Positions 2,251 to 40,836 of a DNA stretch of 64,000 bases are shown piece after piece (position 1 is the stretch's first letter; each line of letters opens with the position of its first letter). The position numbers and the translations under genes were made by a program. Source of the DNA: Fluviicola sp. (GTDB lineage: Bacteria > Bacteroidota > Bacteroidia > Flavobacteriales_D > Crocinitomicaceae). The notes beneath the pieces were generated by a model that saw only the letters and a program-made list of their open reading frames with translations, searched no databases and was not told the origin of the DNA. The stretch is taken from the NCBI RefSeq assembly GCF_039596395.1, contig NZ_JBCNJT010000001.1, positions 1,399,315-1,463,314 on the forward strand. The letters run 5' to 3'.

Positions 2251-2286
2251 AAAAAGGAAACTGAGCGGAGTCGAAGTGTCCTTTTT
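2251..2286. repeat. Hairpin repeat, TTCGACTCCGCTCAG family (copy 1)
   Basis: The minus strand carries the 15-nt core TTCGACTCCGCTCAG. It is flanked by arms AAAAAGGA and TCCTTTTT that pair over 8 bp, with three further pairs inside one mismatch. It lies between the start of recQ and the end of the DUF3298-like gene, and its T-rich arm could end transcription of neighbouring genes. Confidence 0.8.
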
Positions 2287-15028: not shown

Positions 15029-15059
15029 TCCGTTCACTGAGCGGAGTCGAAGTGACGGA
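15029..15059. repeat. Hairpin repeat, TTCGACTCCGCTCAG family (copy 2)
   Basis: The core is on the minus strand. The arms TCCGT-CACT and AGTG-ACGGA pair over 9 bp with one bulged T. It lies just after the shortened copy at 14987. Confidence 0.8.
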
Positions 15060-25058: not shown

Positions 25059-25086
25059 GGTGACTTCGACTCCGCTCAGCCACCTT
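25057..25086. repeat. Hairpin repeat, TTCGACTCCGCTCAG family (copy 3)
   Basis: Arms AAGGTG (25057-25062) and CACCTT (25081-25086) flank the core. The left arm overlaps the last bases of the porin stop codon. A probable terminator. Confidence 0.85.
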
Positions 25087-25123: not shown

Positions 25124-25143
25124 CACTGAGCGGAGTCGAAGTG
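25124..25143. repeat. Hairpin repeat, TTCGACTCCGCTCAG family (copy 4, inverted)
   Basis: The core lies on the minus strand with only 4-bp arms (CACT/AGTG). It is inverted relative to copy 3, with 37 bp between them, so the two cores can also pair with each other. Confidence 0.8.
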
Positions 25144-30579: not shown

Positions 30580-30914
30580 TGTTTCTTCGTTAACGTACAG
30601 ACGAAAATATACAAAAAATTGTTAATGGAACTTTGTTGTTGATAATTCTGAATCAGAATTGTTTAAAACGCCTATTTGATCGAATAGTTCCGGATTCTGA
30701 TTAAATTTGCAGGAGCAATGACGTTTTTAAAACGATTCTGAAGAATAATAAGTTTAATACCTTAATAAACAGCACTTTAAGCTGTTTCACCTTCAGAAAT
30801 AAATGAATTCCTGAACTCGTGTTTGCCGGTGCGAAAACCGGGAAAACGGTCTTACGGGGAGGAATTGAACGGTTAAAAACAATCTGCTATATTTTTAGTT
30901 GTAAAAAGAAAATT
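30580..30914. other. 335-bp region upstream of hemB
   Basis: This gap holds an inverted repeat AATCAGAAT (30651-30659) with its complement (30694-30702). It overlaps TAAATTTG (30702-30709), a possible second promoter. An 8-codon frame (30718-30741, Met-Thr-Phe-Leu-Lys-Arg-Phe-stop) preceded by AGGAG and a hairpin AAACAGC/GCTGTTT (near 30775) follow. The nearest promoter to hemB is listed separately. No riboswitch class is recognised. Confidence 0.5.
30865..30895 (+). promoter_or_regulatory. Promoter for hemB
   Basis: TTG (30865-30867), 20 nt, then TATATTTT (30888-30895), one base from TAnnTTTG. The predicted mRNA begins about 15 nt before the ATG at 30915 and so argues against the longer reading frame from 30819. 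Confidence 0.7.
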
Positions 30915-31889
30915 ATGAATATTCGTCCGAGAAGAAATCGCAAAAGTGCAGCCATCAGAGCAATGGTTGAAGAAACACAATTAGGAGCACAGCACCTGAT
31001 CTATCCGCTTTTCCTGAAGGACGGAAAAAACATTCGTGAAGAAGTGTCTTCTTTGCCGGGGAATTACCGCTGGAGCATTGATCAGTTGCTGCCGGAATTC
31101 GAAAAATGGATGAACCTCGGGATAAAGACATTCGACTTGTTCCCGGCAGTCGATGAACACCTGAAGGACCAAATCGGCAGTTACAGCTATGCAGACGAGA
31201 ATTTTTACCTGCACACCATTCGCACGCTGAAAGAAAAGTTCCCGGAAGTGGTGTTAATGTCGGATGTAGCGCTGGACCCTTATTCTTCAGACGGGCACGA
31301 CGGTTTGGTAATTGACGGGAAGATCGTGAATGACCCGACGCTGGATATCCTGGGACGCATGTCTGTTGCGCAGGCCCAGGCAGGAATTGACATCATCGGT
31401 CCTTCCGATATGATGGACGGAAGAGTAGGTTTTATCCGTGATGAACTGGATGCTGCAGGTTTCCAGGATGTTTCGATTATGTCTTACACGGCAAAATATG
31501 CCAGTGCTTTCTACGGTCCTTTCCGGGATGCGTTAAATTCAGCACCGAAGAGCGGAGATAAGAAGACCTATCAAATGAACCCGGCCAACAAGCGCGAGGC
31601 TTTGATAGAAGCGGAACTTGATATTGCTGAGGGAGCAGATTTCATTATGGTGAAACCGGCTTTGTGCTATTTGGACATTATCCATTTGCTGAAAGAGAAT
31701 TTCGCGACACCAGTTACGGCTTACAATGTGAGCGGAGAATGTGCCATGGTTTACGCAGCTGCTAAAAACGGTTGGCTGGATTACGACCGGGCTGTCATGG
31801 AAATGCTATTGAGTATCAGAAGGGCAGGAGCAGATGGGATTTTGACGTATTTTGCGCCGGATGCAGCTAAACTAATTGCTAATTCTTAA
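30915..31889 (+). CDS. hemB: Delta-aminolevulinic acid dehydratase (porphobilinogen synthase)
   Basis: It joins two 5-aminolevulinate molecules to porphobilinogen in heme synthesis. The start MNIRPRRNRKS at 30915 is chosen because it is the family start and fits the promoter. The 324-residue protein has the two Schiff-base lysines K194 (YTAKYAS) and K247 (MVKPAL). In the metal site, the three cysteines of zinc-dependent enzymes are replaced by A119, D121 and D129 (segment 117-130), the non-zinc, Asp-rich class. A hairpin repeat follows directly as terminator. Confidence 0.96.
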   Translation: MNIRPRRNRKSAAIRAMVEETQLGAQHLIYPLFLKDGKNIREEVSSLPGNYRWSIDQLLPEFEKWMNLGIKTFDLFPAVDEHLKDQIGSYSYADENFYLHTIRTLKEKFPEVVLMSDVALDPYSSDGHDGLVIDGKIVNDPTLDILGRMSVAQAQAGIDIIGPSDMMDGRVGFIRDELDAAGFQDVSIMSYTAKYASAFYGPFRDALNSAPKSGDKKTYQMNPANKREALIEAELDIAEGADFIMVKPALCYLDIIHLLKENFATPVTAYNVSGECAMVYAAAKNGWLDYDRAVMEMLLSIRRAGADGILTYFAPDAAKLIANS

Positions 31890-31901: not shown

Positions 31902-31936
31902 AATGGTGACTTCGGCTCCGCTCAGTCACCATTTTT
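31902..31936. repeat. Hairpin repeat, TTCGACTCCGCTCAG family (copy 5), likely hemB terminator
   Basis: AATGGTGACT (31902-31911) and AGTCACCATT (31924-31933) pair perfectly over 10 bp around the core (with one G), followed by TTT. It separates convergent hemB and a lipoprotein gene. Confidence 0.88.
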
Positions 31937-31941
31937 CGGAA

Positions 31942-32505
31942 TTATTTGATTGAGAGTTTCAGTTTATTCCAAACACCTTGTTTTTTCAATTCGGAAATAT
32001 ACTGTTTAGAAGATCCTTGTTCCATTCCATAATCGGTTCCGCCTTCATATTTGATTGATAGAATCAATTGTGAGTTCAATTCGGAGATATTCATTGCTAC
32101 ATAATTTGTTTCGTGGTCCCTGACCTCCCAGGTTTCTTCCAAATCCGTTCCCGGAACCCGGATTTCAGAAACAAAGGGTGTTTGAACTTCAAGGAGTAAC
32201 AAATTACCCAGTCTGCAGTATTTCCCTTTCGAATAGACATCTTCTTCCAGACAAAGTGATTCAAAAACGAATAAGGAATCGTTTACAAATACCATATTGC
32301 TTGCACAACAGTCGCAGGGAGCTAAAATTTGCATGTTTGCAGAATCAATCTCGGGTCCCAGGAAGAAATACTTCCCGCTGAAATCTGTATTGGAATGTTT
32401 TATGAAATCGTCTTTCAGAGAAATAAAGGGTATGGGCTTTCCTTTCGTACATGCTGTAAGAGCAAGTGTGAGGATAAATACGTAAACTGTTTTTTGAATC
32501 GACAT
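31942..32505 (-). CDS. Lipoprotein of unknown function
   Basis: The 187-residue product has the lipobox LTAC (Cys19) behind a short hydrophobic leader. The mature part is beta-rich and Cys-containing (CDCC at about residues 63-66). No known family is recognised. TATCTTTA on the minus strand lies exactly 4 nt before its ATG, a spacing shared with several other genes here. It converges on hemB across a hairpin repeat. Confidence 0.6.
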   Translation of the reverse strand: MSIQKTVYVFILTLALTACTKGKPIPFISLKDDFIKHSNTDFSGKYFFLGPEIDSANMQILAPCDCCASNMVFVNDSLFVFESLCLEEDVYSKGKYCRLGNLLLLEVQTPFVSEIRVPGTDLEETWEVRDHETNYVAMNISELNSQLILSIKYEGGTDYGMEQGSSKQYISELKKQGVWNKLKLSIK

Positions 32506-33859: not shown

Positions 33860-34717
33860 ATGGAACGTTTAATTATTGCTTTACAAAAATCAGGTCGGCT
33901 CCGGGAAGGTTCCCTGGAATTGCTGAAAGAATGCGGCCTGAAAACCGATTACCGGGACGGACAACTCAAGATCGTTACATCCGATTACCCGGCAGAGCTC
34001 TTATTCCTGCGCAACAGTGATATCCCGCAATACGTATCCGACGGGGTAGTGGATCTGGGAATTGTGGGGTCCAATCTACTGGAAGAAGATGAAACTCCGG
34101 TGGAGATTATCCAGGCACTGAATTTCTCCCAATGCCGTTTGTCGTTTGCTGTCCCCAAAGCGTCTGGCATTCAAACAGCCGAAGATTTGCAGGGAAAACG
34201 CATTGCTACATCGTACCCGAATTCAGTAAGAAAGTACCTGCAACAACAGGGAATTACCGCGGAAATACACCCCATTTCAGGTTCGGTAGAAATAGCGCCA
34301 TCCCTGGACTTGTCAGACGCCATTGCAGATATCGTTTCTACCGGGAACACCCTTTTTCAAAACAACCTGCGGGAAATTTTCCCTTTTCTTTATTCCGAAG
34401 CAGTTTTGATCAAAGGCCCGGATTTGGCCCCTGAAAAACAGGTGCTGCTGGACCAATTGCTTTTTCGTATTCAATCTGTTCTGGCGGGAAATGAAAACAA
34501 ATACATTCTGCTCAATGCTCCGAAAGAAAAACTTTCGACAATCTGCAAGATTCTTCCGGGAATGAAAAGCCCTACCATTCTTCCTCTTGCGGTTGAAGGC
34601 TGGATCAGTATTCATTCGGTGGTGAAAAAAAAGGAAGTCTGGCAGGTCGTTCAGCAACTAAAATCGGAAGGTGCAGAAGGAATCCTCGTTTGTCCTATCG
34701 AAAAAATGGTTTCTTAA
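33860..34717 (+). CDS. hisG: ATP phosphoribosyltransferase, long form
   Basis: First enzyme of histidine synthesis: it joins ATP and PRPP. The 285-residue protein has RLIIALQKSGRLREGS and DLGIVGSNLLEE for the catalytic domain and ISGSVEIAPSLDLSDAIADIVSTGNTL as the PRPP site. The C-terminal about 75 residues (MKSPTILPLAVEGWISIHSVV) are the ACT-like regulatory domain that gives feedback control by histidine, so HisZ is not needed. It begins 51 bp after the attenuator T-run and is followed two bases later by hisDC. Confidence 0.97.
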   Translation: MERLIIALQKSGRLREGSLELLKECGLKTDYRDGQLKIVTSDYPAELLFLRNSDIPQYVSDGVVDLGIVGSNLLEEDETPVEIIQALNFSQCRLSFAVPKASGIQTAEDLQGKRIATSYPNSVRKYLQQQGITAEIHPISGSVEIAPSLDLSDAIADIVSTGNTLFQNNLREIFPFLYSEAVLIKGPDLAPEKQVLLDQLLFRIQSVLAGNENKYILLNAPKEKLSTICKILPGMKSPTILPLAVEGWISIHSVVKKKEVWQVVQQLKSEGAEGILVCPIEKMVS

Positions 34718-34719
34718 AG

Positions 34720-37038
34720 ATGAAAACACTCATAAATCCATCCCAAACAGAATTAAAAAAAGTCCTGGAACGGGTGAAACTGGAACCCGGAAACCTGGAA
34801 GCTTTCATTTCGGAAGTGTTCCAAAAGATTGAAACAGAAAAGGACCTGGCATTGCGAAATTTTACCCTGCAATTTGACGGTACTGTCCTTGACAGTATAC
34901 CGGTCGAAGAATGGGAATTCGAAGAAGCAGAAGCCCTCGTTTCAATGGAATTAAAGCAGGCCATTCGTGTTGCAGCCCGCAATATCGAACGTTTTCACCG
35001 TTCACAAGAGAACCGGGAAACAGAAGTTGAAACAACTCCGGGCGTCCTTTGCTGGAGAAAATCCGTACCGATACAAACTGTTGGACTATATGTTCCCGGA
35101 GGCACAGCTCCTTTATTTTCGACTGTTTTAATGCTTGGAATTCCTGCTAAAATTGCCGGAAACCCGACGCGTTATTTATGCACTCCTCCCGACAAAAAAG
35201 GGAAAATCCACCCTGCAATTTTATTTGCGGCAAAAACAGCCGGAATTGATATCGTATACAAAGCCGGTGGAGCACAAGCCATTGCCGCCATGAGCCTGGG
35301 AACGGAAACCATTCCAAAGGCGGATAAAATCTTCGGCCCGGGAAATCAATATGTGACGGCGGCAAAGGTATATGCCCAAAAACTCGGAATTGCCATTGAT
35401 ATTCCAGCCGGCCCGTCGGAAGTACTGGTTGCTGCCGACCGATCGATTCCCGCATCCTTTGTTGCCGCAGACTTACTGGCTCAAGCCGAACACGGCACGG
35501 ATTCACAGGTCATTTTCCTTACGGATGAAAGTGAGTACCTGGAACAGGTATTGGAAGAAGTAAACAGACAACTGGAATTACTTCCCAGAAAAGAGATTGC
35601 CCGAGAAGCTTTGAAATCCAGTCTTGCTATTGTTTCAACGATCAAAAACTGGCCGGAAATCATCCGTTCGTATGCTCCGGAGCACTTAATTATCATGGGG
35701 AAATACGAAGACGAGATCGTTCCGAAGATCACCAATGCCGGAAGTGTATTTATCGGCAGGAATACGGCTGAGAGTTTCGGGGATTATGCTTCAGGTACCA
35801 ATCACACCTTGCCAACTTCCGGTTTTGCAAATGCATACAGCGGTGTTTCCCTGGATTCCTTTGTCAAGAAAATCACCTATCAAACAGTCAGTGACCTGGG
35901 ATTGAAAAACCTGGGGCAAACAGTGATTACTATGGCAGAAGCGGAAGAATTGCAGGGGCACGCTAATGCGGTAAAAGTACGTTTCGACTTCGCTCAGCGA
36001 CTTTCTTCTGACACTCCGGACATTAACCATTTTATCCGGAAGGATTTGCGGGACGTGACACCTTATAGTTCTGCAAGGGATGAAAGTGCAGGTACCGGCG
36101 ATGTTTTCCTGGACGCCAACGAACATGCTTCAGTCACTCCTTACAACCGGTATCCCGATCCGGGACAAAAACAATTGAAGGAAGTAATCGGGGAGATCAA
36201 AGGAATCCAACCGGAAAATTTGTTCCTCGGAAACGGGTCGGATGAAGTGCTGGACCTGATCTTCCGGCTTACCGGAACTCCGTTTCTGGACACCGTTGCG
36301 TGCTTAAATCCTTCCTACGGAATGTATGCTGTACTCGCTAAACTGAACGGCCTGGAACTGCGGAAAATCAATCTCGACAAGCAATTCCGGATTACTGCTC
36401 CACAAATCTTAGCACAGGCAGAAGGTTCGAGGCTATTGGTATTGTGTAACCCGAATAATCCGACCGGAAACCTGATCCCTAAAAAGGTTTTGCTTGAAAT
36501 TATCCGGGAATTTACAGGATTGGTAGTGATTGATGAAGCCTACATTGATTTTTGTCCGGCTGATTCCTTATCCGGTGAAGTGACTCATTATCCGAACCTG
36601 ATCGTGGTACAAACACTTTCAAAAGCTTACGGAATGGCGGGCTTACGCATTGGAATGGCAATCGCTTCGAAAACCTGGATTGCCGCCCTGAACCGGATAA
36701 AACCTCCTTACAACTTGAGCTCGGTGGTACAGGAAAAAGCTATCGACACTTTAAAAACAACTCCCTGGAACACATTGAAGGCTGAAATTATCGGGGAGCG
36801 GGAACGTTTGACCGTCTTTTTGAAATCCCAAGCAGCTGTTACGGAAGTTTTTCCATCGGAGGCCAACTTCATTCTTTTCCGCATTCCGGATGCTTCGGCT
36901 GTTTACCGGAAACTGCTTGAAAACGGAGTAGTCGTGCGCGACAGAAGCAGCCAATTTAATTGTTCGGATACCTTGCGGGTGAGCATCGGGACCCGGGAAG
37001 AAAACAATCAATTCATTCAAATCATGCAAACGTTATGA
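34720..37038 (+). CDS. hisD-hisC: Fused histidinol dehydrogenase / histidinol-phosphate aminotransferase
   Basis: A single 772-residue frame carries HisD (about residues 1-421) and HisC (about 434-772). HisD shows GLYVPGGTAPLFST and KIFGPGNQYVTAAK, its usual end LQGHANAVKVR, and the zinc-binding region with AEHGTDSQV. HisC shows DVFLDANEH, NPNNPTGNLIP and the PLP lysine K635 in TLSKAYGMAG. Separate copies of both usually occur in Bacteroidota. The joining stretch (residues 422-433) is encoded by a copy of the hairpin repeat at 35974-36004. The start MKTLINPS (34720) is 2 bp after the hisG stop and the 3' end overlaps hisB (ATGA). Confidence 0.95.
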   Translation: MKTLINPSQTELKKVLERVKLEPGNLEAFISEVFQKIETEKDLALRNFTLQFDGTVLDSIPVEEWEFEEAEALVSMELKQAIRVAARNIERFHRSQENRETEVETTPGVLCWRKSVPIQTVGLYVPGGTAPLFSTVLMLGIPAKIAGNPTRYLCTPPDKKGKIHPAILFAAKTAGIDIVYKAGGAQAIAAMSLGTETIPKADKIFGPGNQYVTAAKVYAQKLGIAIDIPAGPSEVLVAADRSIPASFVAADLLAQAEHGTDSQVIFLTDESEYLEQVLEEVNRQLELLPRKEIAREALKSSLAIVSTIKNWPEIIRSYAPEHLIIMGKYEDEIVPKITNAGSVFIGRNTAESFGDYASGTNHTLPTSGFANAYSGVSLDSFVKKITYQTVSDLGLKNLGQTVITMAEAEELQGHANAVKVRFDFAQRLSSDTPDINHFIRKDLRDVTPYSSARDESAGTGDVFLDANEHASVTPYNRYPDPGQKQLKEVIGEIKGIQPENLFLGNGSDEVLDLIFRLTGTPFLDTVACLNPSYGMYAVLAKLNGLELRKINLDKQFRITAPQILAQAEGSRLLVLCNPNNPTGNLIPKKVLLEIIREFTGLVVIDEAYIDFCPADSLSGEVTHYPNLIVVQTLSKAYGMAGLRIGMAIASKTWIAALNRIKPPYNLSSVVQEKAIDTLKTTPWNTLKAEIIGERERLTVFLKSQAAVTEVFPSEANFILFRIPDASAVYRKLLENGVVVRDRSSQFNCSDTLRVSIGTREENNQFIQIMQTL
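35974..36004. repeat. Hairpin repeat, TTCGACTCCGCTCAG family (copy 6), inside hisDC
   Basis: The core here is TTCGACTTCGCTCAG, one change from the family core, with arms AAAGT-CG (35974-35981) and CG-ACTTT (35998-36004) pairing over 7 bp around one bulged A. It is translated as R-F-D-F-A-Q-R-L between the HisD and HisC domains. Other copies in the window are all intergenic. Confidence 0.8.
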
Positions 37039-38171
37039 AACAAAAAATTCTTTTTATTGACCGGGACGGGACTATTCTCAAGGAACCAAGCGATTACCAG
37101 GTCGACTCTTATTCCAAACTCCAGTTTTTGGAAGGAGTAATTTCAGCCCTGAAAACCATTGTTTCCTGGAACGAATACGAGCTTGTATTAGTCAGTAACC
37201 AGGACGGATTGGGCACAAAAAGTTTTCCTTTGGAAGATTTCAACGGTCCACACCAACTGATGCTGGATATTTTGGAAAGCGAGGGCATTGTTTTTTCAGC
37301 AGTGTGCATAGACCGTTCTTTCCCGGAGGAACAATCTCCGGACCGGAAGCCCCGAACGGGGATGCTCACAAGGTATTTTTCCAAAGAATATGACCTGGGG
37401 AACTCACTGGTAATCGGTGATCGCCTGACAGACGTCGAACTGGCTAAAAACCTGGGTTGTAAAGCCTTTTTACTGGACGCAAACTCCATAGAAGTCGGGA
37501 CTGAACTACAATTTTCGCCGGAAGAACTGGAAAAAGTCATACTCCGCAAGGTCTCGAATTGGAATGATTTGCTTGCCGACCTGCGTTTGGGAACCCGGAA
37601 AGTTGAAATACGCAGGACCACGGCAGAAACTGATTGCTGCATCAACCTGGACCTGGACGGAAGCGGCATTTCGACAATTCAAACCGGAATTGCTTTCCTG
37701 GATCACATGCTGGACCAGCTTGCGCGTCACGGACAACTGGATATCACACTAACCACGAACGGCGATTTGCAAATCGATGAGCACCACACTATTGAAGATA
37801 CTGCTCTGACCCTTGGGCAGGCAATTGACCAGGCTTTGGGATCAAAACGCGGAATAGAGCGTTATGGATTTTGCCTGCCGATGGACGATTGTTTCGCAAC
37901 TTGTGCTATTGATTTCGGAGGTCGCGCGGAATTGATCTGGGACGTGGAACTGAAGCGCGAATTCGTAGGAAAACTACCAACTGAAATGGTTCATCACTTT
38001 TTTAAATCATTTTGTTTTACAGCACGTTGCAATATTTATATTCAAGCAATAGGTGAAAACGAACACCACAAGGTAGAATCCATCTTCAAAGCCTTTGCGA
38101 AAGCCCTATTAATGGCCAAACGCAGAAGCGGAAATTTCGATTTTCTCCCGACAACTAAAAACGCACTCTGA
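37035..38171 (+). CDS. hisB: Bifunctional histidinol phosphatase / imidazoleglycerol-phosphate dehydratase
   Basis: Residues 1-165 form a HAD phosphatase with the D9-x-D11 nucleophile motif (FIDRDGT), and residues 188-378 the dehydratase with RTTAETD, DHMLDQLARHG (223-233) and DEHHTIED (249-256) for metal binding. In the phosphatase the loop where enterobacterial HisB binds zinc with four Cys/His shows only C91, so that zinc site appears lost. The start ATG at 37035 overlaps the hisDC stop by 4 bp (ATGA). Confidence 0.96.
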   Translation: MKQKILFIDRDGTILKEPSDYQVDSYSKLQFLEGVISALKTIVSWNEYELVLVSNQDGLGTKSFPLEDFNGPHQLMLDILESEGIVFSAVCIDRSFPEEQSPDRKPRTGMLTRYFSKEYDLGNSLVIGDRLTDVELAKNLGCKAFLLDANSIEVGTELQFSPEELEKVILRKVSNWNDLLADLRLGTRKVEIRRTTAETDCCINLDLDGSGISTIQTGIAFLDHMLDQLARHGQLDITLTTNGDLQIDEHHTIEDTALTLGQAIDQALGSKRGIERYGFCLPMDDCFATCAIDFGGRAELIWDVELKREFVGKLPTEMVHHFFKSFCFTARCNIYIQAIGENEHHKVESIFKAFAKALLMAKRRSGNFDFLPTTKNAL

Positions 38172-38788
38172 TGCAAGTAGCAATCATTGATTATGGAGCC
38201 GGAAACCTGTTTTCGATCCGGCAAGCATTTAAACGGTTGGGACGGGAAGTCGTTTTAACAGCTGACGAAGGAGAAATCCGCTTGGCTTCACATGTTATTT
38301 TCCCGGGGGTGGGGCATGCGGGAAGTGCTATGAATTACTTGCAGGAAAAAGGATTGGAGCGGGTTATACCCACTTTGACCCAGCCCGTGTTGGGAATTTG
38401 CCTGGGTATGCAGTTGATGTGCGGCTGGAATGAAGAAGGAAACCTGCAGGGTTTAGGAATTTTCGACGTGCCGGTTCAATCCCTCGAATCCCAATTCGGC
38501 CATCTGCAAATTTGCCAGTTTGCCAAATGGCAAACCGAAGATTTCCGGGCAAACTATCCCGTTCCGCACATGGGTTGGAACGATGTTCAGTTAAACGGAA
38601 AATCCGAAGCATTCTACTTCGTACACAGCTATGCCGCCGGAATTTGTAAAGACACCTGGGGAATTGCCGGGTATCCCTGGCCTTTTTCCGCAGCATTGAA
38701 AAAAGACAATTTCTACGGTGTTCAGTTTCACCCTGAAAAAAGCGGAACCGCCGGAGAACAATTACTCACTCAATTTTTAGCATTATGA
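38171..38788 (+). CDS. hisH: Imidazole glycerol phosphate synthase, glutaminase subunit
   Basis: A 205-residue class I glutamine amidotransferase that passes ammonia to HisF. The triad is C77 (GICLGM), H187 and E189 (GVQFHPEKSG); the PHMGWN block is at about 132-137. Relative to E. coli HisH there are about 20 additional residues before PHMGWN (about 108-128, including HLQICQFAKWQTE), encoded by DNA (38499-38537) that matches an intergenic repeat at 47651. Its ATG shares one base with the hisB stop, and its stop overlaps hisA (ATGA). Confidence 0.95.
   Translation: MQVAIIDYGAGNLFSIRQAFKRLGREVVLTADEGEIRLASHVIFPGVGHAGSAMNYLQEKGLERVIPTLTQPVLGICLGMQLMCGWNEEGNLQGLGIFDVPVQSLESQFGHLQICQFAKWQTEDFRANYPVPHMGWNDVQLNGKSEAFYFVHSYAAGICKDTWGIAGYPWPFSAALKKDNFYGVQFHPEKSGTAGEQLLTQFLAL
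38499..38537. repeat. AAATTTGCC palindromic repeat (copy inside hisH)
   Basis: The 39-nt stretch contains GCAAATTTGC and TTTGCCAAATGGCAAA, both self-complementary. By eye, 33 of 40 aligned positions match the intergenic sequence at 47651-47690. It is in frame and encodes part of the extra segment of HisH. Confidence 0.7.
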
Positions 38789-39513
38789 TCGCCATACCTG
38801 CAATTGACTTAATAAATAACGAGGTAGTTCGCTTATTCCAGGGGGATTACAAGCAGCAAACAGCTTATCCATTGGATCCGGTCGAATACGCCATTGAGAT
38901 AATGACCAACGGATTGGAATATTTACACCTGGTAGATTTATCGGGAGCAAAAGCCGGAAAGCTCGTGCACCAATCCATCCTGGAACAAATTGTGTCCCAA
39001 ACAGCCCTGAAAGTAGATTTCGGAGGAGGAATAAAAACAGAGGGTGACATTCGTCATTTATTGAAATCCGGAGCCACCCAGGTCGTAATCGGGAGCTTGT
39101 GCGTGAGAGATCCGGAAAAAGTAATGGAATGGATTGAAACATTCGGAACGGAACGCTTTATCCTGGCGCTGGACATCGACGGAAACGAACTGAAGATCAA
39201 CGGATGGCAAGATGCTTCCGGAAAAACTTTGGAAGAAATCATGCGCCGGTTCAGTCGGTTCAAAGGATTAACCATTCTGACCACAGACATCCGCAGAGAC
39301 GGCACAGGATCAGGCCCGAATGTGGATTTGTACGAAAAACTAGTTCGGAACTTCCCCGACCAGCGCTGGATTGCAAGTGGTGGAACAGAATCTTTACAAA
39401 ACCTGGAAAAACTCCGAAAAGCAGGCTGTTACGGCTGTGTGATCGGCAAAGCATTGCTCGAAGGGAAAATAACTTTAAAAGAACTTAAATCATTCAACGA
39501 TGCAGGTTTATAA
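38785..39513 (+). CDS. hisA: ProFAR isomerase (phosphoribosyl-formimino imidazole carboxamide isomerase)
   Basis: A (beta/alpha)8 barrel of 242 residues that opens the ribose ring of the histidine intermediate. D8 in IPAIDLINNEVVRL and the Asp in TTDIRRDGTGSGPN are the catalytic pair; GGGIKTEGDI and ASGGTESL bind phosphates. It overlaps hisH by 4 bp at its start and hisF by 14 bp at its end. Confidence 0.97.
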   Translation: MIAIPAIDLINNEVVRLFQGDYKQQTAYPLDPVEYAIEIMTNGLEYLHLVDLSGAKAGKLVHQSILEQIVSQTALKVDFGGGIKTEGDIRHLLKSGATQVVIGSLCVRDPEKVMEWIETFGTERFILALDIDGNELKINGWQDASGKTLEEIMRRFSRFKGLTILTTDIRRDGTGSGPNVDLYEKLVRNFPDQRWIASGGTESLQNLEKLRKAGCYGCVIGKALLEGKITLKELKSFNDAGL

Positions 39514-40255
39514 ACGAATCATTCCGTGCCTGGACATTCAAAACGGGAGGACGGTAAAAGGAATCAACTTCGAATCGATCCGGGACGCCGGAGATCCTGT
39601 TCAGTTAGCCAGCTACTATGCAAAACAGGGGGCAGATGAACTGGTATTACTGGATATTTCAGCAACGATTGAGAGGCGTTCGACATTTATCCCGGTAGTA
39701 GAAGCTGTTGCAGAACAGGTAAACATTCCATTTACGGTGGGCGGAGGAATTTCATCAGTTGAAGCTGCACGAATACTCCTGAGAAGCGGTGCAGATAAAA
39801 TCGCTGTCAATTCATCGGTAGTAAAACGCCCGCAATTAATTGCCGAATTGGCCGATCAGTTCGGAAGGCAATGTGTAGTAGTGGCAATTGATGTACGCAA
39901 AGCGAAAGCCGGTTGGACCGTTCACACCCATGGAGGAAAAAAGGATACCGGCATCGACGCAATTGAATGGGCTGTAAAAGCTGTTTCAATGGGAGCCGGG
40001 GAATTGCTCCTTACTTCCATGGACGGAGACGGAACGAAAAACGGATTCGCCCTGGATTTTTACCGGAAAGTACAAAAGTTTGTGACTGTTCCGGTGATTG
40101 CTTCCGGTGGAGCAGGAACTGCAGCACATTTTGAAGAACTGTTTACCCAAACGTCTGTTACCGGCGGATTGGCTGCCAGCATTTTTCACTTCGGAGAAAT
40201 TGAGATTCCCGAATTGAAACTTGAATTGAGTAAAAGAATTAGAATAAGGCTATGA
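39500..40255 (+). CDS. hisF: Imidazole glycerol phosphate synthase, cyclase subunit
   Basis: A (beta/alpha)8 barrel (251 residues) that uses ammonia from HisH. Catalytic Asp residues are D12 (PCLDIQNGRTVKG) and the one in TSMDGDGTKNG; the GGGISSVEAA and ASGGAGTAAH phosphate loops are intact. It begins inside hisA (14 bp overlap) and its stop overlaps hisI (ATGA). Confidence 0.98.
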   Translation: MQVYKRIIPCLDIQNGRTVKGINFESIRDAGDPVQLASYYAKQGADELVLLDISATIERRSTFIPVVEAVAEQVNIPFTVGGGISSVEAARILLRSGADKIAVNSSVVKRPQLIAELADQFGRQCVVVAIDVRKAKAGWTVHTHGGKKDTGIDAIEWAVKAVSMGAGELLLTSMDGDGTKNGFALDFYRKVQKFVTVPVIASGGAGTAAHFEELFTQTSVTGGLAASIFHFGEIEIPELKLELSKRIRIRL

Positions 40256-40836
40256 AATACGACAAAAACGGATTAATTCCGGCAATTATACAGGATTCAC
40301 AAACGAATAAAGTCCTGATGCTCGGTTATATGAATGAAGAATCGTTCGAACAAACACTGGAAACAAAATTGGTGACCTTTTTTTCGCGTTCCAGGAACGG
40401 GATTTGGGTAAAAGGAGAAACTTCCGGGAATTATTTAAAACTGGTTGACTGGAAAGCGGATTGCGACCTGGATGCTTTATTGATACGCGTCATTCCCGCG
40501 GGGCCAACGTGTCACACCGGGACCACTTCCTGTTTCGGTAAAGCAACGAGAGATCCGCTTAACATCTTGAGCGGCTTGATACAAACCATTGATGAGCGGT
40601 TTACAACTCCCCGGGAAGGATCTTACATTCAATCGCTGATTGAAAAGGGATTGTCTAAGATTGCTCAGAAAGTAGGTGAAGAAGGAGTGGAAGTGGTGAT
40701 TGAAGCGATGCGGAACGAACCGGAACTATTCAAAGAAGAAGCTGCTGATTTGTTGTTTCACTATTTGGTTTTGTTGCGGGCGAAGGAGGTGGATTTTAGA
40801 GAGGTGCTGGGTGTTTTGGATGGAAGACAAAAGTAA
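40252..40836 (+). CDS. hisIE: Bifunctional phosphoribosyl-AMP cyclohydrolase / phosphoribosyl-ATP pyrophosphatase
   Basis: 194 residues carry both steps 2 and 3 of histidine synthesis. HisI: KVLMLGYMN at the start, WVKGETSGN and the metal site with DCDLDALLIRV and GPTCHTG. HisE (from about 105): GSYIQSLIEKGLSKIAQKVGEEGVE and a helical C-terminus. It is the last gene of the his operon. No obvious terminator follows at once; about 70 bp separate it from a convergent gene. Confidence 0.97.
   Translation: MKYDKNGLIPAIIQDSQTNKVLMLGYMNEESFEQTLETKLVTFFSRSRNGIWVKGETSGNYLKLVDWKADCDLDALLIRVIPAGPTCHTGTTSCFGKATRDPLNILSGLIQTIDERFTTPREGSYIQSLIEKGLSKIAQKVGEEGVEVVIEAMRNEPELFKEEAADLLFHYLVLLRAKEVDFREVLGVLDGRQK

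Follow-up and report, generated by a model that had tools for sequence, protein, structure and literature searches.

An intergenic hairpin repeat translated within the linker of a fused HisD-HisC protein of Fluviicola

The linker that joins histidinol dehydrogenase (HisD) to histidinol-phosphate aminotransferase (HisC) in a fused two-enzyme protein of Fluviicola sp. carries residues encoded by a hairpin repeat that is normally found between genes. Well-known cases of intergenic repeats becoming protein sequence come from Rickettsia. In the account that we favour and consider quite probable, hisD and hisC were fused first, and a REP-like element subsequently entered the insertion-tolerant linker, where it came to be translated as FD(S/F)AQ. 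The linker provides a concrete case, with a proposed order of events, in which a supposedly non-coding repeat encodes some of the segment joining two enzymes in one protein. Taken together with the leuS loops described later in the text, it constitutes a testable system for studying the route from intergenic repeat to protein sequence in free-living bacteria.

RESULTS AND DISCUSSION

The hisDC gene and the repeat copy in its linker

The window, that is, the whole stretch of 64,000 nucleotides that was analysed, contains a his operon composed of hisG, hisDC, hisNB, hisH, hisA, hisF and hisIE (33860-40836), in which the gene names other than hisD and hisC were assigned by eye on the open reading frames (ORFs). 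As an earlier, sequence-only reading of this DNA had stated, hisD and hisC form one frame of 772 codons (34720-37038, + strand), which is open throughout. In the fused protein, the HisD model TIGR00069 matches residues 31-421 (483.6 bits) and the HisC model TIGR01141 matches residues 440-770 (316.5 bits), both above their cut-offs. The first match ends on the last position of its profile and the second starts on the first position. The PF00815 (HisD) match ends at residue 422, and PF00155 is also matched in HisDC. The features of the gene are as follows.

34720..37038, + strand: hisDC, fused histidinol dehydrogenase / histidinol-phosphate aminotransferase, 772 aa (profile matches and ORF)
35973..35982, + strand: left arm AAAAGTACGT, formed by the KVR codons at the end of HisD; pairs with the right arm no better than by chance
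35983..35997, + strand: hairpin-repeat core, TTCGACTTCGCTCAG, translated FDFAQ (residues 422-426)
35986..36036, + strand: inter-domain linker, residues 423-439, DFAQRLSSDTPDINHFI (gap between the HisD and HisC models)
35998..36004, + strand: right arm CGACTTT; pairing not above chance

The core in hisDC is one mismatch away from TTCGACTCCGCTCAG. The variant with this base, TTCGACTTCGCTCAG, is common, occurring at seven places, hisDC included, in the list of matches with at most two mismatches in the same genome. On a matrix of 35 positions, built from 53 other copies of this genome with the hisDC copy left out, the hisDC place scores 32.9; the 53 source copies range from 26.4 to 52.1, and the second-best place in the hisDC locus reaches only 2.2. 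The proposal that the join is encoded by a copy of the hairpin family with one changed base is thus borne out by the core and the matrix score for about residues 419-428, which are the element-encoded part, but not for the remainder of the linker (residues 429-439), which is not recognisably repeat.

The arms of the hisDC copy are still complementary in their letters (AAAGT-A-CG / CG-ACTTT), as had been noted, and the left arm coincides with the HisD codons for KVR. This complementarity was considered as a sign of kept structure and rejected, the folding energy being no better than with shuffled flanks (-7.3 versus a mean of -7.7, with 55% of the shuffles equally stable). The hisDC copy of a second genome of the genus (G001) is likewise not unusually stable, 87% of its shuffled flanks being equally stable. 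In an AlphaFold model of HisDC (11 sequences, pTM 0.56), the last HisD helix continues across the repeat-encoded FDFAQRL as far as residue 429, and the hinge residues 430-432 lie below pLDDT 50. As modelled, the repeat-encoded insert would most likely be a tolerated spacer in HisDC, and no sign of a function for it was seen in any of the analyses made.

The repeat family in this genome, the genus and the phylum

With at most two mismatches, the core matches at six places in the window, versus 0.12 expected. Besides the hisDC copy, these are the following.

2261..2275, - strand: core copy without mismatch, outside ORFs of at least 80 aa (locus L010)
15037..15051, - strand: core copy without mismatch, outside ORFs of at least 80 aa (locus L011)
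25065..25079, + strand: core copy, first of an inverted pair
25126..25140, - strand: core copy, second of the inverted pair
31911..31925, + strand: core copy with one mismatch, between the convergent ORFs 30819-31889 (+) and 31942-32505 (-)

The copy at 31911-31925, located about 20 nt past one ORF and before the convergent one, looks terminator-like, with GGTGAC...GTCACC and then ATTTTT.

The family seen in the window by the sequence-only reading is present genome-wide. In the 4.6-Mb genome (hereafter G000), there are 68 core matches with at most two mismatches (three for the reversed pattern) and 54 with at most one mismatch (none for the reversed control). The consensus of the 53 copies other than hisDC is AAAAGGTGAC-TTCGACTCCGCTCAG-TCACCTTTT. 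The arms vary between copies, yet left and right arms pair within the family: of 530 cells of arm positions, 386 are paired, versus 307 +/- 8 (largest value 331 in 1000 rounds) when the right arms are redealt whole among the copies. This excess of pairing indicates that the copies belong to a real hairpin family. By hand count, 20 of the 54 copies with at most one mismatch form ten inverted +/- pairs, whose starts are 33-101 bp apart.

Nearly all copies lie outside long ORFs. The hisDC copy is the sole one inside an ORF of at least 150 aa among the 53 tested in G000, and the corresponding proportions of copies outside such ORFs are 28/30 in G001 and 29/30 in G008 (30 tested out of 31). For the 52 copies of G000 outside these ORFs, the nearest ORF end within 60 nt is a 3' end in 29 cases and a 5' end in 13.

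Copy numbers at one mismatch or fewer differ widely among the 14 genomes of the genus that were sampled: 99 in G007, 54 in G000, 49 in G002, 31 in G008, 30 in G001 and 10 in G003, followed by low counts in G012 (3), G013 (3) and G006 (2). No copy was found at this threshold in G004 (a genome only 83% complete), G005, G009, G010 and G011, and the reversed core gave none in any of the 14 genomes. In a sample of 296 Bacteroidota genomes with a completeness of at least 90%, the exact core is present in 50, G000 among them, and the reversed control in none. The family is therefore patchy but phylum-wide in Bacteroidota.

Distribution of the fusion and of the linker copies

Both genes were found in 12 of the 14 genomes, G006 and G010 having no close match to hisD or hisC; over the fused protein, the nearest relatives of G000 are 74-77% identical to it. 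The genes are fused in nine of the 12 (G000, G001, G002, G003, G005, G007, G008, G012 and G013) and separate in G004, G009 and G011. The sequence-only reading had suggested looking among relatives for separate genes with a hairpin of the same core between them. None of the three unfused genomes has a hairpin between hisD and hisC: with the start codons inferred, the genes overlap by 4 nt (ATGA) in G009 and G011 and are 1 nt apart in G004, in each case in another frame.

The linkers of the fused proteins are hypervariable in both length and sequence, as illustrated by IRLELKQSKSESGMDITRFLR in G002 and VRLDSIFPDTPSDTLQGHELTGKGSILSRMSVEGFIR in G007, and even G002 and G008, which are closely related, differ in linker length. 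In the linker of G007 (locus L034), the LQGH motif with which HisD finishes is repeated (LQGHAKAVKVR ... LQGHE), as though some of the HisD terminus had been duplicated into it. The repeat is present in two of the nine fused linkers, those of G000 (VRFDFAQRLSS) and G001 (VRLKAGFDSAQSTF). The G001 copy, AAAAGCAGGCTTCGACTCCGCTCAATCTACTTTT, has a matrix score of 39.2; the two copies have the same orientation and frame and are 12 nt apart relative to VKVR. For the other seven, the linker is not among the three best matrix places of its own locus. Fused relatives with unrelated linkers, which the earlier reading had named as a finding that would refute it, thus occur within the genus.

When HisD+HisC are analysed together with eight outgroup genomes, all fused genomes cluster in a single group, whose support on the unrooted tree is 89. 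A tree of eight His proteins, in which the three unfused genomes are the only outgroup, separates the fused genomes from them by a branch supported at 98.8/98. In this second tree, G000 groups with G002+G008 (100/100) and is therefore not the sister of G001, and the linkers of G002 and G008 are without the repeat although these genomes carry 49 and 31 copies. How G001, G007 and G012 branch relative to one another is poorly resolved (25.7/32 and 77.7/52).

Outside the genus the fusion is also encountered. In an order-level search of 399 genomes, the one-piece, stop-free matches among those listed all belong to the same genus; long open frames had hinted at extra fusions in G358, G071 and G099, but those in G358 and G071 were rejected on account of stops between the genes, and the one in G099 for lack of a HisC match in its piece. 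At the level of Bacteroidota, 17 of 110 loci with both genes are fused. Five of these merely duplicate other loci of the genus, which leaves the nine of the genus and three others. These three (L084 and L085/L118) have open junctions with other linkers, and the fusion thus arose more than once.

Origin of the linker copy

We propose that an ancestor within Fluviicola fused hisD and hisC, most likely through a small frameshift at a point where they overlapped or were almost adjacent. The fused linker would then have been free to vary in length and sequence. Later, in lineages in which the REP-like repeat was multiplying, a copy would have entered the linker by transposition or recombination, and it may have been kept because its core is free of stops in the frame used and reads as a short polar peptide, FD(S/F)AQ. 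The repeat would be a guest in a permissive linker, presumably neutral, and not the cause of the fusion. That the fusion, through a small indel, most likely predates the repeat is suggested by the unfused genes, which overlap or adjoin without a hairpin, and by the absence of the core, at one mismatch or fewer, from the three unfused genomes and from the early fused G005. Against this account, random insertion would hardly be expected to strike one short linker twice. Moreover, the fast turnover of the linker is compatible with a single ancestral repeat that was eroded in several of the lineages. On the eight-protein tree, in which the order of G001, G007 and G012 is weakly supported, two separate entries would be a smaller count than one entry followed by erosion.

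A single ancestral insertion, in which the repeat entered once in the ancestor of G000 and G001 or in that of all fused genomes and was eroded elsewhere, seems to us rather unlikely; if the entry came after the fusion, it is a variant of the account proposed above. The shared orientation and frame of the two copies, near the same point, speak in its favour, as does the improbability of two chance hits on one linker, and the linkers of G001 and G012 have common short stretches on either side of the place of the core. However, the G012 linker does not score as a repeat, and its alignment with that of G001 is weak, being slightly better than codon shuffles at p 0.01 in one of 36 comparisons. The offset of 12 nt between the G000 and G001 copies is a further difficulty, and losses would be needed in G002+G008, G007 and G012 on the eight-protein tree.

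The sequence-only reading had proposed the reverse order, namely that a hairpin lay between separate hisD and hisC genes and that the loss of the hisD stop codon left it behind as a linker. This would suit a family often found just past the 3' ends of ORFs (within 60 nt for 29 of the 52 copies of G000) and a hisDC copy that sits right at the HisD end. The distribution of the fusion and of the repeat nevertheless contradicts it, and we rejected it as very improbable: seven of the nine fused genomes have no match in the linker, in the unfused relatives the two genes overlap or are separated by 1 nt, are in different frames and have no hairpin, and at one mismatch or fewer neither the unfused genomes nor G005 have a copy of the core. 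It would, moreover, need independent fusions within one group.

We give equally little credit to the idea that the hairpin was kept for a function within the gene, whether in slowing the ribosome between the domains, as an internal terminator or as an mRNA processing site. Repeats of the REP type can serve as RNA hairpins, according to portions of Di Nocera 2013 (PMC3733652), but the folding energies of both hisDC copies are no better than those with shuffled flanks, and seven of nine orthologous linkers are without a match. Finally, a chance 15-base match in a free linker, with which the unexceptional arm pairing in hisDC would agree, has a negligible probability, since 46 sequences x 2 strands x ~60 places / 4^15 gives, by hand, ~5e-6 per linker and the match occurs in two, the reversed control is 0 in 14 genomes, and the flanks also fit the matrix.

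Copies in other ORFs and the leuS loop

The two copies of G001 that lie inside ORFs of at least 150 aa are in hisDC and leuS, and the single one of G008 is in leuS. At a cut of 120 aa, two of the 10 copies of G003 are inside ORFs, one in an ORF of 126 aa; the other, in an MMPL-family protein, falls outside the domain that was matched and may be a chance match. At the same cut, G012 has one of three copies inside an ORF (L315), and G002 has no clear case out of 49, one ORF of 151 aa spanning one pair. In G007, none of the 78 copies read out of 99 is deep inside an ORF, and one lies 34 nt before the end of an ORF of 269 aa (L399). In L315, near 1000-1015, the reverse core (LNGVE) directly precedes a C-terminal YPNPTTG..., for which the secretion sorting domain Por_Secre_tail scores 20.5 bits versus a cut-off of 27 bits.

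In leuS of G001 (L405) and G008 (L415), the core is in frame as FDSAQ. The loop that holds it is flanked by WIGKSxGxSV and IEVFTTRPDT and lies where the editing domain starts (PF13603 from residue 277); no core match was found in 11 other leuS loci. The presence of the core in these two genes means that hisDC is not the only gene in which it has entered a permissive segment of a protein. Six copies deep in long ORFs (hisDC of G000 and G001, leuS of G001 and G008, L312 and L315) share the readings FDSAQ/FDFAQ or, in reverse, LSGVE/LNGVE; they are few and do not represent independent events. A preference for these frames was considered and rejected, as it breaks in L399, where the frame is STPL.

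The leuS loop was read in 12 of the 14 genomes, G002 and G005 being left out. With at most two mismatches, the palindrome TCCCCCTTYRAAGGGGGA is present in the loops of G000 (L410), G012 (L407), G008 and G004 (L416), in whose genomes it has 8, 21, 13 and 30 sites, respectively; the reversed control has none in these four and one site each in G001, G003 and G013. This palindrome of four genomes is of the CCCCCTT/AAGGGGG type, and the loop of G008 has it in addition to the core. The loop of G007 (L408) contains a 26-mer with seven places in its genome at three mismatches or fewer, five of them clustered on one contig; the place at C25:224390 is the one within leuS. In all, six of the 12 leuS loops contain sequence repeated elsewhere in their own genome, belonging to three families.

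Judged from these sequences, the HisDC linker and the LeuRS loop look like sites that take up whatever repeats are active. We tentatively entertain, with slightly more doubt than belief, a broader view, in which permissive linkers and loops of essential enzymes of this lineage would be routinely rewritten in frame by active intergenic repeats and the HisDC linker and the LeuRS loop would be two such landing sites. If this is true, new protein segments would regularly arise from the repeats of a genome.

Comparison with known palindromic elements and fusions

The family is REP-like. It shares with REP elements a short imperfect palindrome with covarying arms, a large number of copies, a mainly extragenic location close to the 3' ends of genes and an arrangement in inverted pairs at short distance. 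Two marks of REP elements were not found, a fixed foot tag and a transposase gene accompanied by copies. The tag GTAG, GTGG or CGTC is absent as a fixed feature, since the feet follow the arms and are mostly GTGA/TCAC, GTGG being readable in a minority only. Y1_Tnp matches are present in the genus (23, in 11 of the 14 genomes). A transposase flanked by copies of the repeat was nevertheless rejected: none of the 23 loci, some of them shortened by contig ends, contains a core copy with at most two mismatches, and two have a match with three mismatches. Related Y1-type transposase-like proteins (LHDSRTS...RARERRF or similar) are encoded in L204, L208, L209, L210 and L211, in genomes with and without the repeat, and these five loci have no repeat copy at two mismatches or fewer.

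As portions of Di Nocera 2013 (PMC3733652) describe them, GTAG/CGTC REPs are short imperfect palindromes, mostly intergenic near 3' ends and often in inverted pairs, with a minority inside ORFs. In the same source, CGTC repeats are reported in Bacteroidetes among five phyla, and REPs are described inside ORFs, including those of essential enzymes. The present family differs from these REPs in that it has no fixed tag, that no transposase gene flanked by copies was found and that its host is the linker of a fused two-enzyme protein. For the TnpA-REP subclasses 2.4 and 2.6 of Bacteroidetes, portions of PMC6006769 report REP insertions that preserve the frame inside the transposase gene. They resemble our case in being frame-keeping insertions of REP-like hairpins in Bacteroidetes, whereas here the 23 Y1_Tnp loci are without a core copy at two mismatches or fewer.

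The fusion itself resembles hisIE and hisNB, as treated in portions of a survey of 91 strains (PMC8305728), in that neighbouring genes of one operon are joined, and the operon studied here also has hisNB and hisIE. Unlike these, a hisD-hisC fusion is unmentioned in those portions of the survey.

In the mode of translation, there is a likeness with the Rickettsia palindromic elements (RPEs), in which a palindrome is translated in frame within ordinary enzymes; R. conorii RPEs and, among the hosts, tRNA synthetase genes are named in PMC3733652. The in-frame element in a conserved enzyme, unmatched in the other orthologues, is found here in hisDC of G000 and G001 and in leuS of G001 and G008. Unlike the RPEs, the present repeat belongs to another phylum and has only a few in-gene copies per genome, and the likeness is one of kind, not of compared sequences. 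A literature search, partly judged by titles, did not find the repeat core, a hisD-hisC fusion or a repeat-encoded linker of a fused enzyme. In-frame REPs are already known, and what appears to be new is a REP-like, repeat-encoded linker between two domains.
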